64,000 nt of DNA from positions 62,001 through 126,000 of the forward strand of contig JAFRAH010000010.1 in the NCBI GenBank assembly GCA_017405525.1, given 5' to 3'. The notes below the pieces were generated by a model. The model saw only the letters and a list, made by a program, of their open reading frames with translations, did not search any database and had not been told where the DNA came from. The DNA is from Synergistaceae bacterium. GTDB taxonomy: Bacteria > Synergistota > Synergistia > Synergistales > Aminobacteriaceae. Made by a program: the position numbers and the translations under genes. Shown one piece after another: positions 8,627-35,679 of this stretch (positions are counted from its first letter, which is position 1; each line of letters opens with the position of its first letter).

Positions 8627-9553
8627 ATGGCAAGAAAATTTTTGTTCGCTCTTTTGCTCGTCGTCCTGTCATGTTCGGCAGTCTTTGCGGCACAGCCAAA
8701 ACCCAAGAATGCACTAGATGCCGGAATACTGACCTATCTCGGAACAACTGAGGCTGAATTTCAGGAAGGTCTTGACGATCTCAGGAAGGCACTAGCCCCG
8801 CTGATACCTTCGGACGGTCCAAGAGATGACCGCGAGGACTACGACATGCTTGAAGGCTACCTCTCTGAACTCGTGAAGAACAGAAGGGTAGTTCACTTCT
8901 ATGATTCCCTGCTGAGTATGCAGATGGCTCTTCGTTCACACAGGATTGATGAGATAGTGCTGCCTGAAGCTGTAGTGATGTACCTCATGGCCAACAACCC
9001 GACAGGCTACGAGATACAGTTTTCGCTAAACATGATGCCGTCAACAATCTCATTTGGTTTCAAGGCCGGTAATACTGCCCTCAAGAAGGAATTTGACGAT
9101 GCCATCAAGGCCATGAAGAAAGACGGTACATTGATGACGCTTGAGAACGACTACATAACCAATCTGGGAACGAATGAGCCCGGACATGTTGCGTTCCACG
9201 AGTTCAAGGGTGCACCGACAATCAAGGTAGCAGTAACTGGAGACCTTCCCCCGCTGGATTATGTGGCGGCTGACGGAAGACCTGCAGGCTACAACACGGC
9301 GATACTCTCGGAGATAGGCAGGCGGCTCAAGAAGAATATCCGGGTGATTGGCGTTGATGCTGGTGGACGTTCGGCGGCTCTTGCGTCAGAGAGGGCTGAT
9401 GTAGTCTTCTGGTACAGGAACACCGAAGGAATGAAGCTCCCCAAAAAGGCAAAAGGCAGAAATCCCAAAGTCAACGATACACATACGGGAGTAATTTTGT
9501 CTGAGCCATATTACGAGTGGGACACTGATTTAGTCGTGGGAAGGTCAAAATAG
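8627..9553 (+). CDS. Circularly permuted SBP_bac_3-like substrate-binding protein (first copy)
   Basis: A signal peptide (about 1-21) is followed by two half-domains in swapped order. Residues 31-178 resemble the second half of an SBP_bac_3 protein: AGILTYLGTT for the GVQKGTT strand, FYDSLLSMQMALRSHRIDEI, then FGFKAGNTALKKEFDDAI and MKKDGTL. Residues 198-300 resemble the first half: IKVAVTGDLPPLDYVAADGR, PAGYNTAILSEIGRRL, ERADVVFWY, ending SEPYYEW. The protein ends where the family's hinge would continue. This is a clean circular permutation that could still give both lobes. It presumably binds a polar amino acid in the periplasm. Followed one base later by a paralogue. Confidence 0.72.
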   Translation: MARKFLFALLLVVLSCSAVFAAQPKPKNALDAGILTYLGTTEAEFQEGLDDLRKALAPLIPSDGPRDDREDYDMLEGYLSELVKNRRVVHFYDSLLSMQMALRSHRIDEIVLPEAVVMYLMANNPTGYEIQFSLNMMPSTISFGFKAGNTALKKEFDDAIKAMKKDGTLMTLENDYITNLGTNEPGHVAFHEFKGAPTIKVAVTGDLPPLDYVAADGRPAGYNTAILSEIGRRLKKNIRVIGVDAGGRSAALASERADVVFWYRNTEGMKLPKKAKGRNPKVNDTHTGVILSEPYYEWDTDLVVGRSK

Positions 9554-9554
9554 C

Positions 9555-10436
9555 GTGAAAAGGTTTCTCTGTTCGCTCATCATTGCGCTGTTCATGGCCA
9601 CACCGTCATTTTCGCTTGAGAGGCTGACGATAACCCTCGGCCTTCTCGAAAAACTCAACTCGACGGAAGAAAGATTCTCCCAGCAATGGCAGAAGGCTTT
9701 TGCCCCGAATAATGAGCTGCTCAAAGTCAACGTGAAGTTCTACCCGACATTAACGGCTCTTCAGATGGCACTCAATGCCGGGGAAATCAAGCACATGGTA
9801 CTTCCTGAGCCTTCAGCCGAATACGTCATGCGTCAGACCGGCGAATATGACCCTGTCCTTGTCCTCAGGTCTCAGGGGATGGGTCTGGCGTTCGGTTTCA
9901 GGGAGGAAGACCGGGAGCTTCGGGACAAGTTCAACGCCGCACTTGAGGCCATGAGGGACGGGCTGATACTCTCAGCACTTGAAGGGATGTACATAGCCTC
10001 GCCGGGCAATGATGACCCCCAGCCGGTGAAGTTCGCGGATTTTCCCGGAGGAATGACCATCAGGGCGGCAGTAACGGGCGACCTCCCACCCATCGACTTC
10101 ATCGCTCCAGACGGAACGCCTGCAGGGTTCAACACGGCGGTGCTGGCTGAGATTGGCCGGAGGATTGGGGCTAATATCCAGCTCGTGAACATTGACGCGG
10201 GAGCTAGGAGTGCCGCGCTTGCGTCGGGAAGGGCTGATGTCGTGTTCTGGTACGAGGTCGTGAAGGGTGCGGAAATTCAGCCGGATATACCTGAAGGGGT
10301 TATAGTCTCAGAGCCATATTACGAGTGGGAAAAGTTCATTCACCTTCGGAAAAAGCAAAAGCAGCAATCATCTTCATCATGGAGCTGGAATATCTCACTT
10401 CCTGACTTCATGAGCCTCTATCTTGGAGGTGAGTAA
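9555..10436 (+). CDS. Circularly permuted SBP_bac_3-like substrate-binding protein (second copy)
   Basis: Paralogue of the preceding gene with the same swapped order: signal peptide (about 1-20), second-half features (YPTLTALQMALNAGEIKHMV, LAFGFREEDRELRDKFNAAL), then first-half features (IRAAVTGDLPPIDFIAPDG, PAGFNTAVLAEIGRRIG, SGRADVVFWYE, SEPYYEW). It has an extra Ser-rich, Trp-containing tail of about 30 residues. The GTG start has GGAAGG 10 nt upstream, inside the previous gene. A strong hairpin follows the stop, so the hflK-to-SBP transcription unit probably ends here. Confidence 0.72.
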   Translation: MKRFLCSLIIALFMATPSFSLERLTITLGLLEKLNSTEERFSQQWQKAFAPNNELLKVNVKFYPTLTALQMALNAGEIKHMVLPEPSAEYVMRQTGEYDPVLVLRSQGMGLAFGFREEDRELRDKFNAALEAMRDGLILSALEGMYIASPGNDDPQPVKFADFPGGMTIRAAVTGDLPPIDFIAPDGTPAGFNTAVLAEIGRRIGANIQLVNIDAGARSAALASGRADVVFWYEVVKGAEIQPDIPEGVIVSEPYYEWEKFIHLRKKQKQQSSSSWSWNISLPDFMSLYLGGE

Positions 10437-10488: not shown

Positions 10489-10896
10489 TTATTCGGTTTT
10501 CCCGTCATAGAACAAGCTGTTTGTCTCGCTGAACTCAAGAAGTATACTGTGCTGGTTGAATGCCTTCAATGCCTCATCCATGATGCCCTTTACTGCCTCG
10601 TCTGATGCACCGTCTATAACGCACACAAGAGTATGCTCACTGCTCACGTTCTCACCTTCACGCCAAAAACCATCAGCCTCATAGAGTGTGTAGCCGTCCA
10701 CGTACTTGATGGCTATCTCGTTGAAGATTTTGCGGGCTTCGGCCATGCTGTAGACCTGTTCGCCTGTGTCGCCGTCATTCATGCCGATGTAGAGGGTGTG
10801 CTTCGTGTGCATCACCAGCTCTGCCCCGAATGACATCGCTGACATGAGCACTGCCATAATTGCCGCAAGGGTGATTAGCCTGTAACTTCTGCGCAT
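10489..10896 (-). CDS. Small secreted protein, DUF3574-like
   Basis: The 135-aa protein has a signal peptide (about 1-24) and a body resembling DUF3574: HTLYIGMNDGD at the first strand, YVDGYTLYEADGFWREGE in the middle, TLVCVIDGA later. Function unknown. It is convergent with the binding-protein genes and divergent from the permease, with its own leader (AAAATTTTCAGGAGG) before the ATG. The family assignment is from pattern only. Confidence 0.55.
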   Translation of the reverse strand: MRRSYRLITLAAIMAVLMSAMSFGAELVMHTKHTLYIGMNDGDTGEQVYSMAEARKIFNEIAIKYVDGYTLYEADGFWREGENVSSEHTLVCVIDGASDEAVKGIMDEALKAFNQHSILLEFSETNSLFYDGKTE

Positions 10897-10978: not shown

Positions 10979-11656
10979 ATGCCACTGGATCAGATACTCT
11001 ACAGGATACTCATACAGGGCGGCTCATACATGACGATACTCAAGGGCTTTAACGCTACGTTACACATATCGGTGTTGTCGCTGATATTCGGGACGTTGCT
11101 CGGAGCGTTGGTGTGTATGCTCAGAATGTCGGGGGTAAAGGCACTCAGCATTCCCGCCAAAATATACATCGTCATACTCAGGGGCTCGCCTGTCTTGATG
11201 CTCCTGATGCTCATGTACTATGGGGTGTTTGCGCGCTCAAGCCTCGAAGCCTCGACAATCGCAGTCATCACGTTTTCCCTGAACGTCGGGGCACATGTTG
11301 CGGAGATACTCAGGGCCTCACTCAGTGCCACAGACAAGGGACAGGTTGAGGCGGCAAGAACGCTCGGATTCTCGGCATGGCAGGCTTTCAGGCTGATCAC
11401 ACTTCCGCAGGTTGTACGCATCGCAAAGCCGGTCTACCAGTCGGCAGTGGTGAACCTGATACAGTGGACTAGCGTTGTCGGCTACGTCTCAATCACTGAC
11501 CTAACACGTGTCATCAACAACATAGCCTCCCGGACAATGCAGCCAATGATAACGATAATTATCGGGATGCTGATATATCTTGCTATGGCCTACATAGTTC
11601 ACGGGCTGTTTGCACTTTCGGACTACTTCCAGAACAGAAAGGAAGCGTTATCATGA
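10979..11656 (+). CDS. Polar amino-acid ABC transporter permease (HisM/GlnP type)
   Basis: Inner-membrane subunit of a polar amino-acid importer, 225 aa, with about five membrane helices. The EAA loop that docks with the ATPase is present (EAARTLGFSAWQAFRLITLP). The stop overlaps the ATPase start by 4 bp, indicating tight coupling. There is no conventional binding protein beside it; the two permuted binding proteins 550 bp upstream are the obvious partners. Confidence 0.9.
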   Translation: MPLDQILYRILIQGGSYMTILKGFNATLHISVLSLIFGTLLGALVCMLRMSGVKALSIPAKIYIVILRGSPVLMLLMLMYYGVFARSSLEASTIAVITFSLNVGAHVAEILRASLSATDKGQVEAARTLGFSAWQAFRLITLPQVVRIAKPVYQSAVVNLIQWTSVVGYVSITDLTRVINNIASRTMQPMITIIIGMLIYLAMAYIVHGLFALSDYFQNRKEALS

Positions 11657-12762
11657 GCCTGATAGAAGTCAAGAATCTCTGCAAGTCTTTCGGAAAACTT
11701 GAGGTGCTCCATGATTTGAGCCTCGACGTTGAGGAGGGTGAACGTATCGCCATAATCGGAGGGTCAGGGTGTGGAAAGAGTGTATTCCTACGTTCGCTTG
11801 AGCTGCTTGAAGTCCCGGACAAGGGGCAAATCTTCATTGACGGCGATGAAATTACCGCCCCACATGCTGACGTGAACAGGATACGCCGAAAAATGGGGAT
11901 GGTCTACCAGAAATTCTATCTCTTCTCACACATGAACGTGATGGATAATTTATGCCTTGCCCCGGTGAAGCTCTCAGGAATGCCACGCAAAGAAGCCGAA
12001 GCCCACGCTATGGACTGGCTCGCCAAAGTCGGACTTACCTCAAAGGCTCACTCAATGCCCGCGACACTCTCAGGAGGTCAGCAGCAGAGGATAGCAATTT
12101 GCCGGAGTCTCATGATGGAGCCGAAGGTGCTCCTGTTCGACGAGCCGACAAGTGCGCTTGATCCTACTATGGTTGGTGAGGTCCTGGCGATGATTCGGAT
12201 GCTCACGAAACACAACATGACGATGCTGATAGTGACGCACGAGATGAATTTTGCCCGTGAGGTTGCCGACAGGGTACTGTTCTTTGCGGACGGGGGCATA
12301 TACGAACAGGGGACACCCAGAGAAATTTTTGACGCTCCCAAACGCAAAAAGACCCGGGCGTTCATACACAAGCTGAAATATTTTGCCTACGAGATACGCA
12401 GCAGGAACTTTGACTTGATGGAGATGCAGGGAAGGATACATCACTTTGCCGAGAGGTACGGGCTCAATTCAAGGCTGTCCTACAGGCTGGCATTATGCTG
12501 TGAGGAGCTGGCCTATGAGATGCTTGCGGGGTGCTGTCCTGACGGCGGGCCTGTCAGTATCGACATAGGAATATCGTACTCGGAGGCTGACGGCGCAACG
12601 GCTATAAGCATGTCCTGCAAGGGGAGGGAGTTCAACCCGTTCATGACTGCAGATGACGATGACGAGGCTCACTTGGGAGTAACAATACTCAGGAGGATAG
12701 CCGGGGAAAATATCAGGCATGAATATTCTGACGGCATTAACAGGATTGAGATAGTAATATGA
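11653..12762 (+). CDS. Amino-acid ABC ATPase fused to a GHKL/RsbW-like domain
   Basis: Residues 1-240 are a GlnQ/HisP-type ABC ATPase with Walker A GGSGCGKS (36-43), signature LSGGQQQR, Walker B VLLFDEPTSALD and switch His in VTHE. Residues about 250-369 are extra. They resemble a HATPase_c module of the RsbW kind: LALCCEELAYEML for the N-box helix, CKGREFNPF for the DxGxxFDP box, HLGVTILRRIAGE for the GLGLxIxR helix, and a closing GINRIEIVI strand. The N-box Asn and the Asp of the D-box are replaced, so ATP hydrolysis by this domain is unlikely. A normal ATPase of this family ends near residue 245, so this is a true C-terminal fusion, possibly a regulatory domain. Confidence 0.85.
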   Translation: MSLIEVKNLCKSFGKLEVLHDLSLDVEEGERIAIIGGSGCGKSVFLRSLELLEVPDKGQIFIDGDEITAPHADVNRIRRKMGMVYQKFYLFSHMNVMDNLCLAPVKLSGMPRKEAEAHAMDWLAKVGLTSKAHSMPATLSGGQQQRIAICRSLMMEPKVLLFDEPTSALDPTMVGEVLAMIRMLTKHNMTMLIVTHEMNFAREVADRVLFFADGGIYEQGTPREIFDAPKRKKTRAFIHKLKYFAYEIRSRNFDLMEMQGRIHHFAERYGLNSRLSYRLALCCEELAYEMLAGCCPDGGPVSIDIGISYSEADGATAISMSCKGREFNPFMTADDDDEAHLGVTILRRIAGENIRHEYSDGINRIEIVI

Positions 12763-27629: not shown

Positions 27630-30600
27630 TTATTCTGTTGCGGTTATGTGGAGTTCATCAGTCTCAAGTTCAATGCCTCCAGATTTTGCCCTGACAGACA
27701 CGCAGAAACCTCCATCAACCATTTCAGCCGGGAGCGTGAATTTCCCCCCATCCTCAGAAAACGTAATGCCTTCAGCGGGCTTGAAGTTGTAGATTACCTG
27801 AACGTCTGAAACTTCAGCCATTGAGCCATCAAGATAGAGCCACTTTCCGAGAATGAACGTGATAGCTTTTCCCTGTTGAACGTTGACGAGGTCAGAGTCG
27901 CGGCCACTGCCTGCCGAGAGAATATCACTGCTCAAGACTTCGAGGGTTGCGGGGATTATTACTCTTGTGTTAGCTGAGAGTTCAGGAATTTCGGTGAGGG
28001 CTTGGGAGTTTTTGGGCTGGACTACTTTCACCGTGAACTTCTTGCTTGATGCAGCACCGTTCTTGTCTTTCGCCTTAATGGTGAACTTGTAGCTTCCTGA
28101 TTTTGTGGGAGTGCCTGAGATTTTCCCGGTCGAGGCTTTGAGTTTCAGACCGTCCGGGAGCTTCCCACTGCTCACGCTCCAAGTGTAGGGAGATGTCCCG
28201 CCTGATACCTTGAGCGTCCACGAACACGAGGCTTTCCGGGTTATTGTTGTCGGGATTGAGCCTGTTAGTGTTGTCTGGGTTACCTTCACAGTGAAGGACT
28301 TAGTGGCCGCCGCACCGTTCTTGTCTTTTGCCTTGATGGTAAACGTGAAGATGCCCGCCTTCGTTGGAGTACCTGAAATTTTCCCTGTCGATGCATTGAG
28401 CTTTAAGCCGTCTGGGAGTTTCTCACTGCTCACGCTCCAAGTGTAGGGAGATGTTCCACCCGATGCCTTGAGCGTCCACGAACACGAGGCTTTCCGGGTT
28501 ATTGTTGCCGGGATTGAGCCAGTTAGTGTTGTCTGGGTTACCTTGACGGTGAATGACTTTGAGGATGCTGCACCGTTCTTATCTTTGGCCTTGATGGTGA
28601 ACGTGTAGGTGCCTGCTTTTGTGGGAGTACCTGAGATTTTCCCGGTCTTTGAGTTTAGGGACAAGCCCGCCGGTAATTTGCCGCCGCTTACGGTGAACGT
28701 GTAGGGAGATGTCCCGCCTGATACCTTGAGTGTCCATAAACAGGAGGCCTTCCGGGTTATTGTTGCCGGGATTGAGCCTGTTAGTGTTGTCTGGGTTACC
28801 TTCACCGTGAATGACTTAGTGGCCGCCGCACCGTTCTTGTCTTTGGCCTTGATGGTAAACGTGAAGTTGCCTGCCTTCGTGGGAGTACCTGAGATTTTCC
28901 CGGTTGATGAGTTTAGGGACAAGCCCGCCGGTAATTTACCACTACTCACAGTGAACGTGTAGGGAGATGCCCCACCCGATGCTTTGAGCGTCCACTTGCA
29001 CGAGGCTTTCCGGGTTATCGTTGCCGGGATTGTGCCAGTTAGTGTTGTCTGGGTTACCTTCACCGTAAATGACTTTGAGGCTGTCATGCCGTTAGCATCT
29101 TCCGCCGAAACAGTGAACTTGAACGTTCCAGCCCTTGACGCAGTCCCTGAGATTACCCCTGTAGCTGGGGCAATGTTCATTCCTTCAGGGAGCGTCCCAC
29201 TGGAAACCTTGTAGGTATATGGCTGAGTCCCTCCATCTGCCGTCAATGCCTCCCTGTATTTGCCCTTCCTCGTACAGCCAGAAAGTGAACCGTATAGCTT
29301 TATGACCGTTATATTGACGCTGAAGTTCCGTGTTACGGAGTTACCTGTGCTGTCTGAAGCCTTGATGCTGAAGTTGTAGTAGCCTTCCTTTGAGGGAGTG
29401 CCTGAGATTACGGCCTTGTTCCCCGAATAGCTGAAGCTGAGCCCCGAAGGTATATTCCCGGCTTTCTCCCATGAGTATGGCATTACACCGCCGGTTGCCT
29501 CAATGCTCCCGGAGTATAACTTCCCCGCAATGCCATCACTGAATGTGTCCCCGCTCAATGTGAACGGAAGAGTGCTTACAGTCAGGGTGAAAGTCTTTTC
29601 CGCACTGCCGAGTGAGTTGGTGGCTTTCACGGTAAATGTGAACGTTCCTGCTGAACACAAGCGGCCATGCAAACGTCCTGAGTCCCTCTCAAGCGTCAAG
29701 TCCGGGGGCAAAGTTCCTCCTGTCTTCTCCCACGTGATGGGAGTTCTGCCATTTCTCGCAAGGGTGAGGTCATAGTCATTGCCTGTTGTTCCTGCTGGAA
29801 GGTTGTTGCCGGTGGTAATTTCTGGCGCGTCCGGGTCTCGTATGAAGATGGTGAAGTCCTTTTCCGCCGAGCCTGAATCATTCTGAGCCTTGAGCCTGAA
29901 AGTATATGTTCCTGTTGAGTTGAGATGTCCCCACAAACGCCCGGAGTTCTCATCAAGCCTCAAGTCCGGGGGAAATGAGCCGCTTACCTTCTCCCAGTGA
30001 GTATTGCCGTTCCCTGTGCACCTGAACGTGAACTCGTAATCCGTTCCTTTCGTGCCGCCGGGTAGTGTGCTGTCGGAAGTAATCTCCAGCGCGTCCGGGT
30101 CTCGTATGAAGATGGTGAAGTCTTTTTCCGCCGAGCCTGAGTCATTCTGAGCCTTGAGCCTGAAGCTGTATGTACCTGTTGAGCTGAGATGTCCCCACAA
30201 ACGCCCGGAGTTCTCATCAAGCGTCAGGTCCGGGTGGAATGAGCCGCTCACCTTCTCCCAGTGAGTATTGCCGTTTCCCGTACACCTGAACGTGAACTCG
30301 TAATCCGTTCCTTTCGTGCCGCCGGGTAGTGTGCTGTCGGAAGTAATCTCTATCGTCGGATGGGGATCTTCAGGCTGTGGGCTGCCTCCATCGCTCACCG
30401 TAAGCGTAAATTCCTTTGTGCCAGTGCCGCTGAGATTCACGGCCTTGACGGTGAACCTGAAAGTCCCTGCCTCCTGGACATACCCGAAAAGCCGCCCGCT
30501 GTTGCCGTCGAGCTCAAGCCCTGAAGGATGAGTGCCGCCGTCAAAATACCAGTGAGCCGAGCCCTCGCCTGTGCATTCAAGCAGCTTGTCGAAGTAAGTT

Positions 30601-31238
30601 CCCGTTGTCGTTCCCGGAAGAACTGAGCCGGTGGTTATCTCTATCGTACTGGGAGAAGGGTTCACCGGCCCGTCTGAAGGTGAGGGAGCCCCAAGCTGAT
30701 AGACCGACGCACCGCCCTTGTTGCCTGCCCTGTTGTAGGCATCAGCCAGCTTTGACCAGGTCAAGTAGTTGTTGGTTATCTTGCCCGATGAGTAGTTGGC
30801 CTGCAGAAATTCCACACCGTTATCGTCAAGCGCAGACACTATCGCCGTGTGAGGGGTGTACACGTTGCCCCAACGCCAATACATCTGGACGACATAGCCC
30901 ACGTTCGCGTGCTCGAATATTCCCTTCACGTCATCAGGTGATATGCTCGTCCTGTTCACGCCTATGATGACCTGCCCGTCCTCAATGGGTGTTAATCCCC
31001 TTATGGTAGCCCCGCCGGTGAAGAGCCCTCCTATGCTTGGTCTTTGCTCATCAAGCAGGACTTGTTTGGCGAAAAGGTAGCAGTTCCCCCCTAGTGATGC
31101 CTCATACTTTTTCCACTCGGAGGCGTTGTACTTTGACGGCCTGCTTATGTTGGCGGCGAATGACTGCCCAGAAAACCCAATCATCGCGCAGAGGATGACT
31201 GCAATAATTGCCGAAAAACTTTCCTTCTTCACGTTCAT
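27630..31238 (-). CDS. Giant secreted protein: possible cysteine amidase domain plus Ig-like repeats
   Basis: The 1202-aa protein has a signal peptide (about 1-29). Residues 30-190 resemble a CHAP/NlpC-type cysteine amidase: GGNCYLFAKQVL supplies a Cys and TPHTAIVSA a His. About ten putative Ig (He_PIG-like) repeats follow, each with a GTLPxGLxL...SGRLxGxxxxxGTYxFTxKA pattern. The last four or five are nearly identical 86-residue units (258 bp). The final 105 residues form a domain shared with the next gene upstream (LEVLSSD, FTLPAEM, ELETDELHITA). Probably a cell-surface adhesin or wall-active protein. It starts 4 bp after the partner gene. Confidence 0.7.
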   Translation of the reverse strand: MNVKKESFSAIIAVILCAMIGFSGQSFAANISRPSKYNASEWKKYEASLGGNCYLFAKQVLLDEQRPSIGGLFTGGATIRGLTPIEDGQVIIGVNRTSISPDDVKGIFEHANVGYVVQMYWRWGNVYTPHTAIVSALDDNGVEFLQANYSSGKITNNYLTWSKLADAYNRAGNKGGASVYQLGAPSPSDGPVNPSPSTIEITTGSVLPGTTTGTYFDKLLECTGEGSAHWYFDGGTHPSGLELDGNSGRLFGYVQEAGTFRFTVKAVNLSGTGTKEFTLTVSDGGSPQPEDPHPTIEITSDSTLPGGTKGTDYEFTFRCTGNGNTHWEKVSGSFHPDLTLDENSGRLWGHLSSTGTYSFRLKAQNDSGSAEKDFTIFIRDPDALEITSDSTLPGGTKGTDYEFTFRCTGNGNTHWEKVSGSFPPDLRLDENSGRLWGHLNSTGTYTFRLKAQNDSGSAEKDFTIFIRDPDAPEITTGNNLPAGTTGNDYDLTLARNGRTPITWEKTGGTLPPDLTLERDSGRLHGRLCSAGTFTFTVKATNSLGSAEKTFTLTVSTLPFTLSGDTFSDGIAGKLYSGSIEATGGVMPYSWEKAGNIPSGLSFSYSGNKAVISGTPSKEGYYNFSIKASDSTGNSVTRNFSVNITVIKLYGSLSGCTRKGKYREALTADGGTQPYTYKVSSGTLPEGMNIAPATGVISGTASRAGTFKFTVSAEDANGMTASKSFTVKVTQTTLTGTIPATITRKASCKWTLKASGGASPYTFTVSSGKLPAGLSLNSSTGKISGTPTKAGNFTFTIKAKDKNGAAATKSFTVKVTQTTLTGSIPATITRKASCLWTLKVSGGTSPYTFTVSGGKLPAGLSLNSKTGKISGTPTKAGTYTFTIKAKDKNGAASSKSFTVKVTQTTLTGSIPATITRKASCSWTLKASGGTSPYTWSVSSEKLPDGLKLNASTGKISGTPTKAGIFTFTIKAKDKNGAAATKSFTVKVTQTTLTGSIPTTITRKASCSWTLKVSGGTSPYTWSVSSGKLPDGLKLKASTGKISGTPTKSGSYKFTIKAKDKNGAASSKKFTVKVVQPKNSQALTEIPELSANTRVIIPATLEVLSSDILSAGSGRDSDLVNVQQGKAITFILGKWLYLDGSMAEVSDVQVIYNFKPAEGITFSEDGGKFTLPAEMVDGGFCVSVRAKSGGIELETDELHITATE
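28020..29060 (-). repeat. 258-bp tandem coding repeats (86-aa Ig-like units)
   Basis: Near-identical blocks recur every 258 bp. The plus-strand motif CTGGGTTACCTT occurs near 28280, 28537, 28795 and 29052, and a diverged copy is near 28018. They encode TITRKASC...GKISGTPTKAG units. Such repeats can expand or contract by recombination and may also be mis-assembled. Confidence 0.8.
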
Positions 31239-31242
31239 GAAA

Positions 31243-34200
31243 TTACCTCGTTTCTATGGCTGTAATGTTGAGTTTTTCCGTCTCAAGCTCAGTCTCTCCC
31301 GCAAGTGCCTTCACCGTTACGCTTATCCCTCCGTGAATCATCTCTGCCGGAAGCGTGAACGTCCCTTCATCCGATACGGTTATGCTCACGTCGGGCTCAT
31401 CGTTCACGAAAACGCAGACACCAGAGACCTCAGCACTTGACCCATCAGGATAGACCCACCCGCCTATCACGAAACTTAGCGGCAGGCCAGCCCTGACATC
31501 AACGAGCCCGGCATCAATCCCAGTCCCTGCATAGAGGACATCACTGCTCAGGACCTCAAGCCCTGTAACCGCATTAAGCCCGGTGTTTCCACCATCACTG
31601 TAGGTTTCAGGGTTGGGAACTTCACGCGCTGACTCGTCATTGCCGGGAACGTCAGGAGAATTTTCAGGCTTACCTTCAGGTGATGAGGCTTGCGTGTCTT
31701 CAGTCTGTGAGGCTGAGAGGTCTATAACCCAGAGAAGATATGTAGCCTTGCCTGTTGCACCGTTGGCATCCTTGACTTTTACCGTGAACTCAAAATCCCC
31801 GGCCTCGCATGGAACTCCTGAGATTGTCCCATTATTCTTGTTGAGCTCCAGCCCTATGGGAAGTCTGCCGGAACTCACTGACCACTTATAGGGTGAAGTC
31901 CCTCCTTTTGCCGAAAGAGGTACGTTGTAGCTGTCCCCCAAAAAGCCAACGTCAAGTGTCCCGGTTATCTCAGGCTCAGTTATTCTGACGGTGAAGACCT
32001 TTGAGGCTGAAGTGTTGTTCTTGTCCTTTACCCTTACGACGAACGAGAAAGTACCTGCCTTTGTGGGAGTTCCTTTTATCTTGCCGGTATTAGGGGCAAT
32101 CGTCAGGCCGTTGGGAAGTTTACCGGAACTTATTGACCATTTATAGGGTGATGTCCCTCCTGTGGCATTAAGAGTCCCTGTGTATGGTGCCTTGACTGGT
32201 TTAGTCGTTGGGATTGTCCCGGTTATTGCTAGTTTTGCCGACGATGAAGTTACGGTTATCTTGTAGGTCTTAGACCCGGCCGCACCGTTAGCATCTTTTG
32301 CCTTCACTGTGAAACTGAATGCTTTTGCCTTTGTTGGCTTGCCCTTTATCTCGCCGGTATTGGGGTTAATCGTCAGACCGTCAGGAAGTTTCCCGGATGA
32401 GACCGACCACTTATAGGGTTTCGCTCCACCTGAAGCCTTCGGTGTCCCTGTGTATGATGCCGTGAGTGTGGCTGTAGCTGGTATCGAGCCGGTTACTGAT
32501 GTCTGAGTTACCGCAACACTGAATGACTTTGTTCCTTCCACGCCGTTAGCGTCCCTTGCCTTTACGGTGAAGGTGAAAGCTCCTGCCTTGCTGAGAGTTC
32601 CCTTTATTTTCCCGGTTGACTTGTTGATGCTGAGGCCGTCGGGTAATTTCCCCGCGCTTATCGTCCAGGTATAGGGTGCTGTTCCTCCTGAGGCTTTCGG
32701 TGTCCATGTGATGGATGCCTTGCGGGTTGAAGTGGCTGGGATTGTCCCGGTTACTTTTGTCGCTGTTACGGTTATGGTGAACTTCTTTTCGTTCGACATT
32801 CCGTTTTTGTCGCTGACCTTGACCTTGAACGTGAACGTGCCGGATTTTGAGGGCTTGCCGGAAATTTTGCCGGTCGACGTGTTGAGACTTAGGCCGTTCG
32901 GAAGATTCCCTTCACTGACTGACCATGTATAGGGTTTCGCACCGCCTGAGACTGAGAGCCCCCACTTGTACGTTCCTTTCTTTGCGATCTCTGAAGGGAG
33001 GGTGCCGCTAAGTTTTGTCTGTGTTACGTTGAGGGTGAAGGTCTTTGATGTGCTCCCAACTGAATTTTTCGCCTTTAAGGTGAACGTATACTTTCCTGTT
33101 CCTGAGAGAATGCCTTTGAGTTTTCCCCCGCTGGTCAGTGATACGCCGGGAGGAAGTGTCCCGCCTGTTCTGCTCCAGGTTATGGGCTGTGTACCGGTTG
33201 CGGCAAAAGTGATGTTGCAGGTCTGCCGTCTGGTCATGGCCGGAAGTGTCTTGCCTGTGGTTATGGTGGGAGGTGTTCCGGCTGAGAGACCTTCGGGGGC
33301 GTTTATCTTCACGGTGTATTCCTTCTCGGTGTATGCGTTCCTTCGGTCGGTGAACCTGAGCTTGAATGTGTACGTTCCGGGAGTGTCCGGGATTCCCTCA
33401 AGGTAGAAGTTCCCTTCATCCTGCCTGATGTAGAACCTCGTAGGAAGTGAGCCGCTAATCAGGTTGAACGTGTATTCCCTGACTCCTCCGCTGACTGCTA
33501 TGCTGTTCGAGTACCATGTGTTGACCCCGTAGCCTTCGGGGAAAGTCCCGGATGCCGACATGTCTTGTGCTGAATATGGAGTGCCCTTTATCTTGAGGGT
33601 AAATTCACGCTCGACGAACTTGTTCCTCTGGTCAGTTACCCGGAGCTTGAACGTGTAATCTCCAGCAGTGTCCGGGATGCCCTCAATGTAGAACCTTCCG
33701 CCGTCCCTCCTGACGTAGAAGCCCGGAGGAAGTGAGCCGCTCGTTATCGTGTGAATGTAGTCTGCCGTACCGCCGCTGACCTGGACATAGCCGGAGTACC
33801 AGTTGCTGACCGTGTAGCCGTCAGGAAGTGAGCTGCTCAATGACATATCCGTAGTTGACTGGAACGAGGAATCAGCATTGCCCTTTATCGTAACGCTGAA
33901 TGTCCGTTCAACGTAGGCATTCCGAATGTCTGTAATCCTGAGCCTGAAGTTGTACCTTCCTGTCCGTATTGGGATACCCGCAAGGTGTATCTCATTCACC
34001 CAAGACTTGCAGAGGAACATTCCCGGAGGAAGTGAGCCATTTACGAGGGTGATGTTGAAGTCGCCAGTATACCCCATCGCATACACATAGCTGTCGTAGG
34101 GAACCCATGCATTTTTGTCGGTGTCGAGGTCGCCTGTTATCGACATGTCTGAAGCCTCGTAGGGTGTACCGTTTAACTTCACGGTGAACTGACGCTCAAC

Positions 34201-35679
34201 ATAGGCATTCCTGCTGTCTGTTGCCCTGAGAGTGAACTTGTAGGTGCCGCCCTTGTTGGGTATTCCTGTGAGGTGTATCTCATCTCCCCAGTTCTTGGCG
34301 AGTGAGAGCCCCGGAGGAAGGTCGCCGCTTACATGGCCGATGCTCATAGTGCCGGTGTACCCGCTGACCTTGACGTAGCTGTCGTAGCGGTCATTTACCC
34401 TTCTGCCACTGGTGAAGTCGCCGGTTATAGATATGTCGCTGGCCTTGTAGGGTTTGTCGTTGATTTTGACGGTGAATTGACGCTCAACATAAGCGTTCCT
34501 TTTGTCTGAGGCCCTGAGCTTGAACGTGTATGTGCCGCCCTTGTTGGGAGTGCCATAGAGGTAGACAGTCCCCCAGCTGTAGCCACCGAGAGACATTCCT
34601 GGAGGGAGGCTGCCTTCAGAGACTCCCCAATATATTGTGTCGGTGTATGTCTCACAGTTCACGGCACTGGAGATGTATTCGTTGACCCTTCGGTTTGTGA
34701 GGAGGTTGCCGGTTATGGTCATGTCCCCGGAAATGAAGGGGGTATCGTTTATCTTGATGGTGAAGCGTTTTTCGGTGTACTTGTTCTGAGTGTCGGTTGC
34801 CCTTATCGTGAAGGTGTACTTTCCGCCGGTGTTGGGTATTCCTGAGAGTGTTGCGCCTTCGTTCCCCCATCCGTATGGTGAAAGCGAGAGGCCGGGGGGA
34901 AGTGTCCCGCTCACTATGCTCCATGTTATGCTGCCATTGTAGCCGCTGACAGTAACGCCGCTGCTGTAGTCTGCATTGATCCGCCTGTCTGTGTGGAAAC
35001 TGCCGGTTATTGCCATGCTGTCAGACAGTGAGGGGGCATTTCTTGTCCCGGTTATTTTGACGGTGCTCTTGATGCTTGCGTATGAGTTCCGCCGGTCAGT
35101 TGCCTTCAGCGTGAATGTGTACGTCCCGGCCTTTGAGGGTATGCCTTCAAGGAAGAACCTGTTAGCGTCCTGCCTGATGTAGAGCCCCTCCGGGATAGTG
35201 CCTGAGACGTTGAACGTGTAGCCTGAAGTTCCGCCGGTTATGGTTGTCGTGCTCTGATACCATGTTCCTGCCTGACCTGTTGCCGTGAAGACAGGGGATA
35301 TTGTCATGTCGTCAGCCTTGTAGCTCTGTCCTCCAATATCGAAACTGAAGCTCTTTTCGGCGTAGCAGTCCCTTCTGTCTGTAACCCTGAGCTTGAAGGA
35401 GTAAGAGCCTGCCGTGTCAGGTGCTCCCTCAACGTAGAACGTACCGCCGTCCTGCCTGATGAAGAAGCCCGGAGGCAGTGAGCCCTCTGTGATGTTGAAG
35501 GTGTAGTTTCCGACTCCTCCTGAACAATTTAGCGGGTATGAGTACCAGGGGTTGACGGTGTAGGCTTTTTGGAGTGAGCCGGACAAAGTCATATCGCTTG
35601 CTAGTTTTGCTGTGGAAGAGCCAGCCCAAAGAAGGACAACCAAAAATGACAGAGCCGCTGAAAATTTCTTGAAGCTCAT
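31243..35679 (-). CDS. Giant secreted protein of Ig-like repeats
   Basis: The 1478-aa protein has a signal peptide (about 1-24) followed by nine or so repeats of one type (SGSLPPGFxIRQDGGxFYxEGxPDTAGxYxFKLRVTDRRN). About six repeats of a second type follow (SSGKLPxGLxxNxxTGxIKGTPTKA). An acidic linker with DTQASSPEGKPENSPDVPG leads to a C-terminal domain shared with the downstream gene. It has no catalytic domain, LPxTG signal or barrel. Likely a surface adhesin or structural fibre. It is expressed from an extended -10 promoter with the smaller partner behind it. Confidence 0.75.
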   Translation of the reverse strand: MSFKKFSAALSFLVVLLWAGSSTAKLASDMTLSGSLQKAYTVNPWYSYPLNCSGGVGNYTFNITEGSLPPGFFIRQDGGTFYVEGAPDTAGSYSFKLRVTDRRDCYAEKSFSFDIGGQSYKADDMTISPVFTATGQAGTWYQSTTTITGGTSGYTFNVSGTIPEGLYIRQDANRFFLEGIPSKAGTYTFTLKATDRRNSYASIKSTVKITGTRNAPSLSDSMAITGSFHTDRRINADYSSGVTVSGYNGSITWSIVSGTLPPGLSLSPYGWGNEGATLSGIPNTGGKYTFTIRATDTQNKYTEKRFTIKINDTPFISGDMTITGNLLTNRRVNEYISSAVNCETYTDTIYWGVSEGSLPPGMSLGGYSWGTVYLYGTPNKGGTYTFKLRASDKRNAYVERQFTVKINDKPYKASDISITGDFTSGRRVNDRYDSYVKVSGYTGTMSIGHVSGDLPPGLSLAKNWGDEIHLTGIPNKGGTYKFTLRATDSRNAYVERQFTVKLNGTPYEASDMSITGDLDTDKNAWVPYDSYVYAMGYTGDFNITLVNGSLPPGMFLCKSWVNEIHLAGIPIRTGRYNFRLRITDIRNAYVERTFSVTIKGNADSSFQSTTDMSLSSSLPDGYTVSNWYSGYVQVSGGTADYIHTITSGSLPPGFYVRRDGGRFYIEGIPDTAGDYTFKLRVTDQRNKFVEREFTLKIKGTPYSAQDMSASGTFPEGYGVNTWYSNSIAVSGGVREYTFNLISGSLPTRFYIRQDEGNFYLEGIPDTPGTYTFKLRFTDRRNAYTEKEYTVKINAPEGLSAGTPPTITTGKTLPAMTRRQTCNITFAATGTQPITWSRTGGTLPPGVSLTSGGKLKGILSGTGKYTFTLKAKNSVGSTSKTFTLNVTQTKLSGTLPSEIAKKGTYKWGLSVSGGAKPYTWSVSEGNLPNGLSLNTSTGKISGKPSKSGTFTFKVKVSDKNGMSNEKKFTITVTATKVTGTIPATSTRKASITWTPKASGGTAPYTWTISAGKLPDGLSINKSTGKIKGTLSKAGAFTFTVKARDANGVEGTKSFSVAVTQTSVTGSIPATATLTASYTGTPKASGGAKPYKWSVSSGKLPDGLTINPNTGEIKGKPTKAKAFSFTVKAKDANGAAGSKTYKITVTSSSAKLAITGTIPTTKPVKAPYTGTLNATGGTSPYKWSISSGKLPNGLTIAPNTGKIKGTPTKAGTFSFVVRVKDKNNTSASKVFTVRITEPEITGTLDVGFLGDSYNVPLSAKGGTSPYKWSVSSGRLPIGLELNKNNGTISGVPCEAGDFEFTVKVKDANGATGKATYLLWVIDLSASQTEDTQASSPEGKPENSPDVPGNDESAREVPNPETYSDGGNTGLNAVTGLEVLSSDVLYAGTGIDAGLVDVRAGLPLSFVIGGWVYPDGSSAEVSGVCVFVNDEPDVSITVSDEGTFTLPAEMIHGGISVTVKALAGETELETEKLNITAIETR

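Follow-up and report, generated by a model that had tools for sequence, protein, structure and literature searches.

Two adjacent ORFs in the window, the 64,000-nucleotide stretch of Synergistaceae DNA analyzed here, raise the question of whether a type II substrate-binding protein (SBP) can be circularly permuted in nature. The original prediction, made from sequence alone, was that both encoded proteins carry the features of the second half of an SBP_bac_3 protein first and those of the first half last, and that the termini are moved while both lobes could form; no described pair of this kind was known to the predictor, no search having been made. Both ORFs are present, at 8627–9553 and 9555–10436, and their products are called P0001 and P0002. 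The explanation that best accounts for them is that they are secreted, working, circularly permuted type II binding proteins, derived from SBP_bac_3 and cut at one hinge. We regard this reading as very probable, with ligand binding, closure, and delivery being inferred in the absence of experiment. The computation shows that the halves are swapped, that both are included in a compact fold predicted with confidence, that they covary, that the genes are under purifying selection, and that the operon is conserved. The features of the locus are collected in Table 1.

Table 1. The permuted SBP genes of the window, their parts, and the neighboring genes.
Feature	Position	Strand	Basis
ORF of unknown family (orf7993), 204 aa	7993..8607	+	directly 5′ of P0001, kept in most relatives
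P0001, permuted SBP, whole ORF, 308 aa	8627..9553	+	profile matches, AF2
P0001 putative Sec-type signal peptide, residues 1–22	8627..8692	+	by eye; AF2 helix 3–19
P0001 C module (second half): lobe 2 and the last two helices of a normal SBP	8711..9160	+	PF00497 77–131, TIGR01096 145–250, AF2 E29–H178
P0001 linker, former C- to former N-terminus	9161..9217	+	AF2
P0001 N module (first half), last element the hinge strand SEPYYEWDTDLVV	9218..9544	+	PF00497 1–63, AF2 E198–E306
P0002, permuted SBP, whole ORF, 293 aa, GTG start	9555..10436	+	profile matches, AF2
P0002 putative Sec-type signal peptide, residues 1–20	9555..9614	+	by eye; AF2 helix 2–14
P0002 C module (second half)	9624..9992	+	AF2 E24–H146, covariation, weak Pfam match
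P0002 linker, former C- to former N-terminus	9993..10055	+	AF2
P0002 N module (first half), last element the hinge strand	10056..10352	+	PF00497 1–95, TIGR01096 25–125, AF2 E168–E266
P0002 C-terminal extension, low confidence	10353..10433	+	pLDDT 49–59
ABC permease, amino-acid type (BPD_transp_1), probable partner	10979..11656	+	profile match, conserved operon
GlnQ/EhuA-type ATPase with C-terminal extension, probable partner	11653..12762	+	profile match, conserved operon

Order of the Halves

The linear order that defines SBP_bac_3, namely lobe 1, lobe 2, and the terminal helices, is not met by P0001 or P0002. The Pfam profile PF00497.25 (SBP_bac_3) matches each protein in two stretches, with scores of 53.7 and 49.9 bits against a cut-off of 26.4, so that homology is established with both halves represented. 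In P0001, profile positions 77–131 come before positions 1–63 in the chain; a search across the window genome gave the first of these stretches as 97–131. P0002 has its strong match, to profile positions 1–95, in the closing part of the chain (residues 169–269). With the NCBIfam model TIGR01096, residues 78–177 of P0001 correspond to model positions 145–250, and residues 168–273 of P0002 correspond to positions 25–125. The claim that the second half comes first in both proteins was thus upheld by the order of the Pfam and NCBIfam matches, which also rules out a full normal-order domain hidden inside either protein.

When the first part of the chain is compared alone with PF00497, the match is moderate for P0001 (E = 4.7e-5) and weak for P0002 (E = 0.17). 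Taken by themselves, these weak scores would leave doubt about the swapped order; the doubt is removed by the scores of two paralogues, P0003 and P0004, by the family alignment, and by the structural models. P0003 and P0004 match PF00497 in swapped order at 108–117 bits. P0003, encoded on contig 12 of the same genome, is the clearest permuted copy, a GlnH-like protein in an SBP-permease-ATPase operon, and its matches to the TIGR01096, GlnH, and cystine-SBP models are each split into two stretches whose order is swapped. Rejoining the halves in normal order gives P0003 a single continuous TIGR01096 match over model positions 25–250 (124.9 bits), and P0002 likewise matches in one piece, residues 2–217 to model positions 25–238 (58.9 bits). 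Rejoined P0001 gains little, its TIGR01096 match being confined to the second half.

Predicted Structure and Covariation

AlphaFold2 (AF2) predicts P0001 (97 family sequences; pLDDT 91.1, pTM 0.85) and P0002 (139 family sequences; pLDDT 91.5, pTM 0.84) as compact proteins that are closed within one chain at high confidence. The order of elements is the same in both, as follows: lobe 2, the terminal helices, the linker, lobe 1, and a final hinge strand. Each protein is thus predicted to be one confident compact unit and not two unrelated domains, the outcome that would have counted against the original prediction. Foldseek retrieves mostly type II folds (SBPs, LysR effector domains, and ATP-PRT) with E values of about 1e-6 to 1e-5. 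The superpositions on these type II folds are poor, with TMq of 0.23–0.42 and rmsd of 6–13, as would be expected if the lobes were paired out of order. The 50 listed hits of each search include no solved structure that superposes in the permuted chain order. Foldseek aligns chains sequentially, which leaves it no means of superposing a permuted one, and its hits alone are no proof of the fold. The SBP fold of the models, which is a prediction without experimental support, rests on sequence homology, the order of elements, and covariation.

In a mean-field analysis of 300 units (Neff 203), the terminal helix 120–137 is coupled to helix 192–206, hinge residues 99 and 102 are coupled to 264 and 263, and residues 114–116 are coupled to 252. 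Y90, in the second half, covaries with residues 174–181 and 255 of the first half, and these positions are expected to line the cleft. In four controls with shuffled halves, no more than one score reached the 40th real covariation score. Covariation between the halves at helix–helix and hinge pairs is consistent with an SBP fold. Phylogenetic signal was not removed from this analysis, shuffles included, and it cannot distinguish contacts within one chain from contacts between two. Taken together, the profiles, the rejoined matches, AF2, and Foldseek support the claim of a circular permutation in which both lobes could form, with the reservation that the models alone do not prove the SBP fold.

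Relatives, Permease Fusions, and Arrays

The window genome (2.17 Mb, 99.4% complete, 43 contigs) encodes eight permuted SBPs and three normal ones. Its contig 26 carries two permuted GlnH-like SBP genes close together (L002/L003), with a small ORF between them. The same order was found in other genomes: relatives of P0002 are present in all 36 sampled genomes of the genus, with 1–27 matches each, their sources being rumen and other ruminant-gut Synergistaceae or ‘Fretibacterium’ MAGs. Every SBP ORF at the loci of named genomes (176 of 176) is in C-N order, and 300 distinct C-N units were collected for the family. Four more genera of the same family have full-length permuted relatives of P0003, and nearly all single SBPs in the sampled other genera are in normal order. 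No unpermuted near relative of P0002 was found. A search of plasmids for permuted genes gave two-piece or partial matches only, and annotation of two of them revealed no permuted gene. No permuted gene was found in the viral contigs searched. Genomes of other phyla were outside the search, so that absence beyond Synergistota is not established.

Long open frames in genomes of the same genus, up to 3249 aa, consist of permuted units, second half and then first, repeated up to 12 times. These arrays end in an ABC permease wherever the contig reaches that far. In the window itself, P0001, P0002, and the permease are separate ORFs; there is no SBD-permease fusion. Single-unit permease fusions, in two families, are also found in other genera (G104, G039, and probably G111). 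At L082:858–10604, and also at L079–L088 and L095–L098, the ABC permease is part of giant fusions in which a single polypeptide (3249 aa) holds as many as 12 permuted SBP units.

The spacing within the arrays defines the unit. The C-to-N junction within a unit is 21.6 ± 1.2 residues long (n = 73, with exactly 22 residues in 53) and has a conserved pattern. The N-to-C linkers between units measure 31.2 ± 4.1 residues (n = 61, range 24–42) and are often rich in Pro, Ser, or Thr. Since the former is near-constant and the latter are variable, the permuted unit, and not the normal one, is the domain. The alternative register, normal N-C units with stray ends, is ruled out by the same comparison. 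The original prediction, in speaking of a pair, was therefore too narrow, as the family has many copies, which occur singly, fused, or in tandem arrays.

Operon, Selection, and Ligand Site

The order orf7993, P0001, P0002, further permuted SBPs, a DUF3574 gene on the other strand, permease, and ATPase is kept in many relatives with a long enough contig. P0001 and P0002 are under purifying selection, with dN/dS of 0.09–0.12 against orthologues and dS near saturation. That the pair feeds the adjacent importer is likely, delivery being inferred from operon linkage only.

Several neighbors deserve mention. The product of orf7993 has no Pfam or NCBIfam match. Between P0002 and the permease, the opposite strand carries the DUF3574 ORF (10489–10896), which is retained in several relatives. 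The C-terminal extension of the ATPase encoded at 11653–12762 is about 120 aa long, has no Pfam or NCBIfam match of its own, and by eye resembles a GHKL/anti-sigma ATPase; orf7993 shows no similarity to it. Elsewhere in the window, at 27630–35679 on the minus strand, two very large secreted-looking proteins of 1202 and 1478 aa contain repeated Ig-like domains, as judged by eye.

The TxxR arginine, which holds the ligand carboxylate in amino-acid SBPs, is absent from P0001, P0002, and their aligned relatives; P0003 keeps the motif (TDER). With this arginine lost, the ligand of P0001 and P0002, if they bind one, may be other than a simple amino acid. It is possible, judging from the alignment, that the near-invariant R218 stands in for it. 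The ligand class, an amino acid or a derivative, is suggested solely by the type of permease and ATPase, there being no binding data.

Comparison with Known Binding Proteins

The closest known proteins are the cluster F amino-acid SBPs of type II (GlnH, HisJ, and LAO-BP; PF00497, TIGR01096). Both halves are homologous, all the lobe and hinge elements are present, an amino-acid-type permease and ATPase are adjacent, and P0003 retains TxxR. The differences are that the halves of P0001 and P0002 are swapped, their termini are at the hinge, and TxxR is missing. P0001 and P0002 should not be filed as plain members of SBP_bac_3 because the defining order is not met. They are better described as a variant that probably works like a member, a view we consider likely on inferred function and ligand.

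The claim that no such pair is described needs qualifying. TpMglB-2 (Tp0684), designated ‘type Ic / cluster Bc’, is a natural circular permutation of a type I glucose-binding protein (PMC4990184). Like the window pair, it is a naturally permuted binding protein of an ABC transporter, and it keeps binding and closure. In TpMglB-2, however, the fold is of the type I sugar-binding kind, the N lobe has its first three strands relocated to the end, and the hinge is crossed a fourth time, whereas P0001 and P0002 are type II and cut at the hinge. They do not belong to type Ic / cluster Bc, their sequence and fold matches being type II / SBP_bac_3.

A type II permutation has been engineered. In cpLAO-BP, one inter-lobe linker was cut and the old termini were joined; lysine is still bound, with an affinity about 36-fold lower (PMC5087393, which cites the permuted LAO-BP of Okada et al. 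2009). The protein kind and the design are those of P0001 and P0002, with the new termini on different lobes. The engineered protein is man-made, with a (GGS)4 linker and a sensor use, whereas the window family is natural and multi-copy and has a conserved junction of about 22 aa. No natural type II permutation was found in the open-access literature searched, subscription papers being outside the search.

In GlnP of GlnPQ, a tandem SBD1-SBD2 is fused to the permease (PMC8025302, PDB 6h30). Tandem SBPs fused to an amino-acid permease are likewise seen in relatives of the window pair. GlnP has two SBDs in normal order, whereas the relatives have 1–12 permuted units and the window pair is unfused. 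The best PDB match of P0003 is this tandem GlnP (6h30), with an alignment that runs without a break from the second half of SBD1 into the first half of SBD2.

Mechanism and Origin

In the proposed mechanism, the chain would have been opened at the first inter-lobe hinge strand, with the former C- and N-termini connected by a linker. The polypeptide would then run through lobe 2, the terminal helices, the linker, and lobe 1, leaving one new terminus on each side of the hinge. By inference, a single chain makes up the entire bilobed fold and closes on a ligand, which P0001 and P0002 would hand to the permease and ATPase encoded just downstream.

The usual path to circular permutation is a tandem duplication after which the outer halves are lost. 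We infer that an SBP gene was duplicated in tandem and then lost its outer halves; this route would fit the GlnP-like alignment of P0003 and the arrays. The tree compared 110 permuted with 43 normal units, although one of the rows labelled normal (L094) is in fact a truncated array. Left unconstrained, it places the permuted units in three groups and requires 3 changes. Holding the permuted rows in one clade raises the score by 7.2 log units, and this topology is not rejected (p-AU 0.60). A single origin of the permutation is therefore allowed, not shown.

Alternative Explanations

The best-surviving rival is a role other than transport. The fold would be kept, and the pair would be periplasmic sensors or regulators of the importer that bind no transported solute. 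The loss of the TxxR arginine and the presence of several SBPs per single permease in the operon speak for it. Against it, linkage to permease and ATPase is conserved, the covariation of Y90 reaches across the halves to positions expected to face the cleft, and R218, by inference, could replace the lost arginine. We consider this role unlikely.

A second rival is domain swapping, in which each SBP fold would combine halves from different chains, the second from one and the first from the other, either in a homodimer or between P0001 and P0002, and the chain order would be a consequence of swapping. Covariation and profiles are blind to the difference between intramolecular and intermolecular contacts, and engineered halves taken from a type I PBP do show segment swapping (PMC9815098). 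However, AF2 closes the protein within one chain, the intradomain junction in arrays is near-constant in length and conserved in sequence, and the SBP-permease-ATPase operon of the C12 locus has a lone permuted gene. There is very little room for this rival.

That the genes are remnants or chimeras, left by fission of a tandem SBP array, by truncation to pseudogenes, or by a metagenome assembly artefact, gains some support from the fragmented genome, the metagenome-assembled relatives, and the tandem arrays with the same half order, but is virtually excluded by intact ORFs with dN/dS of about 0.1, a signal peptide (judged by eye) preceding the permuted start, and relatives from many independent assemblies that cover both halves in this order in nearly every genome sampled from the genus.

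Implications

The preferred reading remains that of working, hinge-permuted type II binding proteins. A bolder one traces a new topological class of type II binding proteins in Synergistota to a single ancient permutation, arising through duplication and trimming within a tandem SBP-permease protein. With its termini on either side of the hinge, each unit would be a link whose ends shift as ligand binds, and this would have allowed expansion into chains of up to 12 units per permease that act as a ligand-responsive capture array. As one joint claim this is improbable, though not excluded.

SBP_bac_3 ranks with the most thoroughly studied protein families of bacteria and serves as a model for the evolution of two-lobed binding proteins. 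Automatic annotation masks the permutation, as profile tools report partial matches to the ordinary family. Natural hinge-permuted SBPs may serve as scaffolds for hinge-terminated biosensors like the engineered ones, and the range of forms, from single proteins through permease fusions to arrays with as many as 12 units, constitutes a natural series for testing the duplication route to permutation.
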